Source of the DNA: a virus
IMG/VR virus record: IMGVR_UViG_3300035182_000245
Location: 1 to 28,100 of that record
Reading direction: 5' to 3' (one strand)
DNA: 28,100 bases
Shown: one piece after another, positions 23,036 through 24,859 of the stretch
Numbering within the stretch: the stretch's first letter is position 1
Layout of the letters: every line of letters starts with the position of its first letter
Program-made: the position numbers and the translations under genes
The notes under the pieces: model-generated
The model's database searches: none
What the model was told of the DNA's origin: nothing
The model's input: the letters and a program-made list of their open reading frames with translations, nothing else

Positions 23036-23058
23036 AAAGAGGCTTATGCCTCTTTTTT
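23036..23058 (+). terminator. Rho-independent terminator after the first early operon
   Basis: AAAGAGGC pairs with GCCTCTTT around a TTAT loop, and the T tract continues for three more bases. It lies 155 bases after the stop of the 173-aa gene, and separates that operon from the AT-rich region and the methyltransferase promoter. Confidence 0.75.
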
Positions 23059-23161: not shown

Positions 23162-23250
23162 ATATATAGATAGATAAATAGAGAGAGAAAAATAGATAGA
23201 TAGATATAGATATAGATATATATATGTATAATTGTATAATTGTATTATAC
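23162..23250. repeat. AT-rich GATA/TA microsatellite tract
   Basis: Runs of GATA, GA and TA are followed by tandem TGTATAAT-like units (three overlapping TATAAT-type boxes). No gene covers the 600 bases between the terminator and the methyltransferase promoter. The tract would melt easily and could serve as a replication or transcription control region. Nothing identifies an initiator here. Confidence 0.7.
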
Positions 23251-23546
23251 AACAAAAATCAATGACTTAGCTTCTTAAAACTTCTGCATAACCACTGTAA
23301 AATCAAAAATGACCATCAACGCCCCCCAGTTCTGGGTTTTGTAGGCGATCTTGGATGTTGGTTGGCGTAGTTGGTTTTTTCTGCGCGGGTGTTAACGCCA
23401 CATGCCAATTAAACTTAATTAGACGGATTCTAAGGCGAAAATAATCGTTATGAATGCCGATGTAGCGGTAAGCTGTAAAAATGGCTTACGCAGCCTATGC
23501 GTTTGTTGGCATTGGTTGTGGTCGGGGGGGCGCCTGGCTTTTTTCA

Positions 23547-23575
23547 TTGCTGGCTTATTTGAACTTTGGTACAAT
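23547..23575 (+). promoter_or_regulatory. Promoter for the methyltransferase operon
   Basis: TTGCTG (23547-23552) and TACAAT (23570-23575) are separated by 17 bp. Transcription would begin near 23582, giving a leader of about 90 bases that is mostly the hairpin described next. Confidence 0.55.
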
Positions 23576-23598
23576 CCTCATCAACAGGCCGCACCCTT

Positions 23599-23671
23599 AA
23601 CCTCTTGTTTTTTTGTGAAGTGCCACGCCGTGCGGGTCGTGGTGCTTCACAAAACGCCAAGAGGTTTTTTT
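23599..23671 (+). promoter_or_regulatory. Long two-part leader hairpin with T run, covering the RBS
   Basis: The outer arms AACCTCTTG (23599-23607) and CAAGAGGTT (23658-23666) pair perfectly. A three-by-three internal loop follows, then a 17-bp stem (23611-23627 with 23638-23654; all pairs Watson-Crick except two G-U) closed by a ten-base loop. Seven Ts (23665-23671) end at the start codon. The outer right arm contains AAGAGG, the ribosome-binding site of the gene starting at 23672. The structure can therefore act as a terminator or attenuator, as an RBS-blocking switch, or, as DNA, be bound by the ParB-like product. Confidence 0.75.
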
Positions 23672-24859
23672 ATGCCTATCAAAATCACAATTGACACCGA
23701 ATTTAAGTCGCTCATTCCACCATTAAGCCGCGAAGAGTATGCGCAGCTTGAGGCAAACATCATTGCCGAAGGTTGCCGTGATCCGCTTGTGGTTTGGGGC
23801 AACACACTTGTTGATGGGCACAATCGTTATGAGATTTGCACCCGGCTTGGGATTACGTTTACTACGGTGGCTAAAGAGTTTGAAGACCGAGATTCTGCAA
23901 TGGATTGGATGGATGCAAATCAACTCGGACGGCGAAACATTACGCCAGATCAATTTACTTTGCTGCTTGGGCGCAGATACAACCGGGCAAAGAAGGCTCA
24001 GAATGATGGCGGCATTGGCGTATCGAAGGCAACCGGTGATCAAATTGAGCACCGGTTACGCACCGCAGACAAACTAGCCGCAGAACACGGTGTAAGCCAG
24101 CCCACTGTTAGGCGCGCAGGCAAGTATGCCGAAGCTATTGCAGTTGTAGAAAAGGCCATTCCTGGATATACCCCGGTGGTAACAGTACCAAGACAGGCAG
24201 TTATCAAGGCCGCTGCGTTAATCGAAAAATCACCCAATCGTGCTTATGAAATTATTTCTGGTGAAAAGTCGATGGCGGATGTTAAGCGCGAAGAGCGCAG
24301 GGAAGAAATTATTGACAAGCTTGAAAGCGTTTCAGCAATGGAGGTTAAAGCGGCACAAGGTCTTTATGACGTTATTGTTTTAGACCCGCCATGGGCAATG
24401 CAGAAGATCGAACGTGACGCTAGGCCAAACCAAGTTGAGTTTGATTATCCTACTATGTCCGAGGATGAATTGAGGCTACTTGAAATACCGGCTGCTGATG
24501 ATTGCCATGTTTGGGTATGGACAACGCACAAGTTCCTACCAATGGCGTTGAGGTTAATTGAAGCATGGGGGATGAAGTATGTTTGCACATTCACATGGCA
24601 TAAACCCGGTGGTTTCCAGCCAATCGGATTGCCTCAATACAACTGTGAATTTGCCATTTATGCTAGAAAAGGCACGCCAGAATTTATCGACACCAAGGCG
24701 TTTCCAGTTTGCTTTAATGCGCCGCGTGGTGCGCACAGTGAAAAGCCAGAGGAATTCTATGAAGTTGTGCGCCGCGTTACCGCAGGACGCAGATTAGATA
24801 TGTTCAACCGACGGTCAATCGAAGGGTTTGATACATGGGGCAATGAAAGTGGCGATTAA
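23672..24859 (+). CDS. ParB-like domain fused to MT-A70 adenine methyltransferase (395 aa)
   Basis: The start at 23672 has AAGAGG seven bases upstream; an in-frame upstream extension to 23450 would encode a non-conserved cysteine- and tryptophan-rich stretch across the promoter and hairpin. Residues 10-75 are a ParB/Srx-like domain with the box VDGHNR at 47-52. A helix-turn-helix-like segment is at about 131-156 (AAEHGVSQPTVRRAGKYA). The C-terminal MT-A70 domain carries the catalytic DPPW at 238-241, with TTHKFLPMALRLIEAWG and FTWHKPGGF following. It should methylate adenine N6 in DNA, either to protect the phage genome or to regulate. No cognate restriction enzyme is evident. Confidence 0.88.
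   Translation: MPIKITIDTEFKSLIPPLSREEYAQLEANIIAEGCRDPLVVWGNTLVDGHNRYEICTRLGITFTTVAKEFEDRDSAMDWMDANQLGRRNITPDQFTLLLGRRYNRAKKAQNDGGIGVSKATGDQIEHRLRTADKLAAEHGVSQPTVRRAGKYAEAIAVVEKAIPGYTPVVTVPRQAVIKAAALIEKSPNRAYEIISGEKSMADVKREERREEIIDKLESVSAMEVKAAQGLYDVIVLDPPWAMQKIERDARPNQVEFDYPTMSEDELRLLEIPAADDCHVWVWTTHKFLPMALRLIEAWGMKYVCTFTWHKPGGFQPIGLPQYNCEFAIYARKGTPEFIDTKAFPVCFNAPRGAHSEKPEEFYEVVRRVTAGRRLDMFNRRSIEGFDTWGNESGD

Follow-up and report, generated by a model that had tools for sequence, protein, structure and literature searches.

The methylase leader of the analysed viral DNA is a structured region at 23547-23671 on the + strand, in which a mini-hairpin (H1) is followed by a large terminator-like hairpin (H2) whose loop holds the exact complement of the H1 loop, and then by a T run. 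The analysed DNA (the window) is the whole stretch of 28,100 nucleotides, positions 1-28,100 of the IMG/VR record IMGVR_UViG_3300035182_000245. The same fold and loop complementarity were found in the leaders of replication and modification operons of other phages, together with covariation and a coupling to the T run. We infer that the element is probably a conditional intrinsic terminator, which would release an RNA of ~90 nt and gate the replication or modification operon behind it.

The features of the window leader are listed in Table 1. The sequence-only reading had described a two-part hairpin, a ribosome-binding site in its outer arm and a T run that ends at the methylase ATG; the geometry matches exactly, and both the Shine-Dalgarno-like sequence and the T run are found at these places. 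The mini-hairpin H1 and its match to the H2 loop had been overlooked. The H1 stem has 3 bp only and begins ~4 nt past the predicted transcription start. The MFE of the window leader is -53.4, compared with a mean of -31.6 for shuffled sequences (z -5.7); the isolated 91-nt leader has an MFE of -42.9 (z -6.0), in which H1 is also present. H2 combines a stable GC-containing stem with a U run that follows at once, which is the sequence pattern of an intrinsic (Rho-independent) terminator; the consensus terminator scan, which accepts loops of 3-8 nt, did not list H2 because of its 10-nt loop. The promoter proposed by the same reading is plausible in its 17-nt spacing and extended -10 element, but the -35 element is poor, and the site was not listed by a strict sigma-70 consensus scan.

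Table 1. Coordinates of the features in the window leader and the downstream gene.
Feature	Position	Strand	Basis
Promoter-like sequence: TTGCTG (23547-23552), 17-nt spacer, extended -10 TGG-TACAAT (23567-23575)	23547-23575	+	Sequence
Mini-hairpin H1: stem AGG/CCT, loop CCGCAC = k (23589-23594)	23586-23597	+	In leader MFE; k complementary to 23630-23635
Terminator-like hairpin H2	23599-23666	+	Folding and sequence
H2 outer stem (9 bp)	23599-23607/23658-23666	+	
H2 internal loop (3x3), TTT/CGC	23608-23610/23655-23657	+	
H2 inner stem (17 bp)	23611-23627/23638-23654	+	
H2 loop (10 nt), CCGTGCGGGT	23628-23637	+	
Kissing partner k' GTGCGG in H2 loop	23630-23635	+	Exact complement of k
Shine-Dalgarno-like AGAGG in 3' outer arm of H2	23660-23664	+	Sequence; not general to the element
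T run (T7), ends at ATG 23672; if H2 acts as a terminator, the predicted 3' end of the transcript	23665-23671	+	Sequence
ParB-like N-terminal region and MT-A70 methyltransferase, 395 aa	23672-24859	+	Pfam, PHROG, structure comparison

The downstream protein matches the Pfam family MT-A70 (E 3e-20, residues 232-392); its PHROG match is a DNA methyltransferase, and the closest solved chains are those of MT-A70/METTL3. A longer ORF from 23450 across the hairpin was rejected, since the protein homology starts at 23672 and the sequence 5' of it is unconserved. Separate terminator-like hairpins with T tails are located on the + strand at 23036-23055 and 23520-23539, the second of which adjoins the leader promoter on its 5' side. 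The intergenic region of ~790 nt located 5' of the leader also includes, at 23162-23245, AT-rich units of the TAGATA/TATA type arrayed with a period of 4-14; they might form an origin-like or unwinding region.

Shuffling of the 5' segment puts the chance probability of the k/k' complementarity in the window at 1.1%, and shuffling of both segments puts it at 0.36%; because such a match arises in ~1% of cases by chance alone, relatives are needed as support. The same figure favours the explanation that H2 simply serves the upstream region as a common intrinsic terminator, placed beside the methylase start, with a loop match due to chance. This explanation is quite unlikely, as a promoter-like sequence separates the hairpin from the upstream gene, a terminator-like site of its own is present at 23520-23539, and the plan recurs with compensatory changes in many lineages.

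The window's own leader sequence has a sole relative, a 100% identical contig (L002), which was also the only match of an exact hairpin pattern search in viral contigs. No second copy of the leader was found in the window's own record, and the nearest distinct methylase homologue (L003, 73%) lacks the element. The comparison was therefore made with 132 unique leaders of more distant ParB/MT-A70 homologues. Many of these have no arm sequence in common with the window, yet repeat its plan: promoter, H1, linker, H2 with a sequence complementary to the H1 loop, T run and ATG. The order of outer stem, internal loop, inner stem and loop in H2 is also present in 11 other elements. The loop sequence k differs widely among the relatives: TGTGAGAA in L015, L020 and L033; TCAGAAA in L016; TGAAAAA in L053 and L062; CGACTCC in L018; GAAGAAG in L077; GCAACCAC in L297; CATCCTAC in L282; GCTTCAAC in L375; CATCTCAC in L388; AATGCAG in L357; and GTTGCAT in L398. 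Their promoters include TTGACA-17-TAACAT/TAAATT (L016, L015) and the Bacteroidetes TAnnTTTG directly 5' of H1, and in every group H1 is placed at the predicted 5' end or close to it. The window appears to belong to this wider kissing-loop architecture by the common plan, which has a chance probability of ~1% when the window is taken alone, and not by close homologues.

A mechanical detector that requires the T run gave scores of at least 30 in 24 of the 132 methylase leaders and in 2 of 1320 dinucleotide shuffles. The shuffle comparison is the fair test here, rather than the diagonal of a permutation matrix, because the detector itself selects for complementarity. When the T run was not required, it was present in 24/31 kissing leaders, compared with 3/55 in shuffles, so the kissing is coupled to the terminator features; the matches without a T run (L008, L009, L012, L080, L202, L225 and L260), whose rate is near that of shuffles, were left out of the counts. 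At L065:2880-3007, a leader without a T run contains two hairpins with exactly complementary loops (TTCGAG/CTCGAA); it might be a non-terminator variant. A strong hairpin with a GGCGGC(A)TTGGCCGA motif lies 5' of the methylase ATG in L022 and L025; a kissing partner was looked for in these two hairpins and was not found. In L025, a further hairpin located upstream shares sequence with the 5' arm of H2 and might serve as an antiterminator.

Covariation was present in the Bacteroidetes-type subfamily. In seven aligned elements, all 119 cells (100%) of the gap-free segments were paired, a count that leans towards structure, as the segments were trimmed because MAFFT misaligned the outer stems; slid-partner controls on the same elements gave 31-39% paired. 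Compensatory changes on both sides were found in 15 of the 17 pairs overall and in 6 of the 8 pairs of the kissing helix. Every H1 loop of this subfamily consists of an 8-nt k and then AUUAUA, and the complement of k was found downstream of ACATTATA sites in 15/75 cases, compared with 22/1500 with permuted k. The proteobacterial-type L016 and L053 differ by double changes in two k/k' pairs and one outer-stem pair. The complementarity between the H1 and H2 loops thus covaries in the family, while the window itself provides complementarity only. The sequence-only reading had proposed a check for covariation in the arms of homologues; compensatory changes are indeed present among relatives, but these share no arm sequence with the window.

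As regards the conserved ligand-pocket nucleotides and exclusive folds of a metabolite riboswitch, no nucleotides are conserved across the whole class, the internal loops are conserved only within subfamilies, and the H1 and H2 folds do not exclude each other. The Bacteroidetes-type internal loop is purine-rich, for example UGAA/GGAG or GAGUA/GAAAG; the window has UUU/CGC, which places it in the wider architecture and outside this subfamily. No mutually exclusive antiterminator fold was visible, and H1 and H2 coexist. The CM of the first (Bacteroidetes-type) subfamily revealed second copies in L284 and L357. A CM search (R1, covering one subfamily) of 395 Bacteroidota genomes gave no match, which is a weak test.

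The genes behind the element are not limited to methylases. The same element is located 5' of DUF6291 genes, ~1.7 kb downstream of the methylase. One strong element was found 5' of the replication genes in Cellulophaga phi13:2, Flavobacterium 11b, tooticki6-1, lillamy9-1 and elemoC (elemoD), and Olleya Harreka_1, among named phages that were sampled only by the presence of DUF6291. It was not found in the DUF6291 phages of Riemerella, Leeuwenhoekiella, Vibrio and Shewanella; the named phages without it are RAP44, CRP19, Arctus_1, Vibrio 1.265 and 1.029, and Shewanella ZP9. In the proteobacterial-type L053 and L077, the leader is followed by an operon with the methylase, a replication-initiation protein and the DnaB helicase; in L016 the operon consists of the methylase and the initiator. 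The distance from the U run to the first ATG ranges from a few to ~45 nt. Three contigs contain two elements each, whose k/k' pairs do not cross-pair (2-3 nt). A possible second element of Flavobacterium phage tooticki6-1 (L411:11589-11690, k GTCGTCG, with a UGAC/UGAC-type internal loop) lies directly 5' of the HNH endonuclease gene gp32. An element-like match at L407:5339 (k GAGCGAC) is located 5' of a 260-aa ORF in a contig assigned to a Bacteroidetes MAG, and it might be a prophage copy.

These contexts bear on the function proposed by the sequence-only reading, in which the hairpin masks the ribosome site or terminates transcription and the methylase, acting through its ParB-like domain, keeps its own production in check. 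The Shine-Dalgarno sequence in the 3' arm of the window and of L016/L053/L062 agrees with such a model, and phage Mu mom/Com provides a precedent for a hairpin that hides the start signals of a modification gene (PMC6483171). Nevertheless, a methylase-specific switch is very unlikely, because the element also precedes DUF6291 replication genes in phages and operons that lack this methylase, and because it is separated from the methylase of L021 by an 82-aa ORF. Hiding of the ribosome site is not the shared function either: only the window and the L016/L053/L062 group have a reasonable Shine-Dalgarno sequence within the arm, most members have none there, and the Bacteroidetes-type ATG lies ~10-22 nt beyond the hairpin in A-rich sequence. 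The proposed DNA site for the ParB-like domain also disagrees with the data, as the arms are wholly different among relatives and the part that covaries is a loop-loop pairing of the RNA type. What stands is the compact leader of promoter, hairpin and T run directly 5' of the methylase ATG, an architecture that is kept with compensatory changes in relatives. Since the element extends from the predicted start to a U run near the ATG, with the A-rich start region of the Bacteroidetes-type members 3' of it, the common feature is a loop-locked terminator-like hairpin.

In the conditional terminator proposed here, transcription would start just 5' of H1, which would fold first, with H2 next. The H2 loop would then kiss the H1 loop, giving a compact pseudoknotted RNA of ~90 nt with a terminal U run. 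By default, RNA polymerase might halt at the U run and the small RNA be released; the methylase and replication genes would be made only through read-through, once a signal alters the kissing terminator. The candidate signals include a phage or host protein, the state of the RNA polymerase, or another RNA that meets the exposed loops. RCd22/AbiF provides a prophage precedent for a gene read through from a promoter, an ncRNA and a terminator (PMC12373285).

The chief alternative is a small RNA of the phage that stands alone: after termination, the RNA of ~90 nt would itself be the product and act in trans, possibly via its loops, and the downstream genes would be expressed by ordinary read-through. 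Between the predicted start and the U run, nearly all of the RNA is structured, as in stable small RNAs; the loops vary more than any other part and yet are self-complementary in every case; and the non-cross-pairing k/k' sets of two elements in one genome would fit specificity loops (compare the RNAI/SLI kissing, PMC10724649). However, the element is tied to the head of an operon, a second promoter has no room in the few to ~45 nt before the ATG, and k' is already taken by k in cis. This rival is rather unlikely. A 5'-end mRNA stabiliser, in which the 5'-terminal hairpin and the kissing fold shield the mRNA from decay and the T run is secondary, would suit the position of H1 in all groups; it leaves the strong coupling to the T run right after H2 unexplained and is highly improbable. 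The loops might also be identity tags: each element has its own k/k', which would be diversified against cross-pairing even within one genome, and the released RNA would recognise, in trans, matching leaders as they are being transcribed. This idea is doubtful; if true, one sense RNA would provide phage replication operons with a brake like plasmid incompatibility, dependent on copy number, or a control of superinfection.

The element would add a widespread class of regulatory RNA to phage biology, located where phages with Proteobacteria-type and Bacteroidetes hosts switch their DNA replication and modification. Several carriers are in culture (Olleya Harreka_1, Flavobacterium 11b, tooticki6-1, elemoC and Cellulophaga phi13:2), so the proposal is directly testable, and terminators with self-complementary, mutually non-pairing loops might be of interest to builders of RNA circuits. 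A structured leader RNA heading phage replication and DNA-modification operons is apparently new to the literature; no description of a kissing-terminator leader in phages was found in full-text sources, and an earlier one is possible among the many subscription papers outside their reach. The window and 15 related loci gave no match to Rfam at gathering thresholds (including C4 antisense, PK-repBA and abiF), and a relaxed search returned only miRNA-hairpin noise and PK-repBA (RF01089) on the wrong strand, with 19.5 bits against a threshold of 45. The arms and loops change so fast that sequence-based RNA searches miss the element.

Some known systems are similar in part. The put RNAs of phage HK022 are likewise structured, located just past the early promoters and linked to termination. 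They act on RNA polymerase for read-through of later terminators; whereas the second hairpin of the kissing leader itself looks terminator-like, a contrast drawn from their descriptions. The AbiF-associated ncRNA (RF03085) is phage-encoded with the same order of promoter, ncRNA, terminator and gene; in RCd22/AbiF of the C. difficile prophage phi027, a structured ncRNA and an intrinsic terminator follow the promoter, and the gene is expressed by read-through (PMC12373285). It differs in its repeated abiF motifs and Abi protein; whereas the kissing leader has no Rfam match, bears the kissing loop on the terminator hairpin itself, and precedes replication and modification genes. In the mom leader of phage Mu, a hairpin at the start of a DNA-modification gene can mask the start signals (PMC6483171), and a small hairpin also lies beside a larger one. 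However, Mu depends on the Com protein and translation; whereas the kissing leader conserves a terminator-like hairpin with a loop-loop pseudoknot, occurs also on non-methylase genes, and holds start signals in the hairpin only in the window and L016/L053/L062, not family-wide. The replication control of I-complex plasmids, which includes RNAI/SLI loop kissing (PMC10724649), is similar to the kissing leader in its loop pairing in a replication-gene leader (RF01089, PK-repBA); whereas these plasmids use translational control with an antisense RNA.
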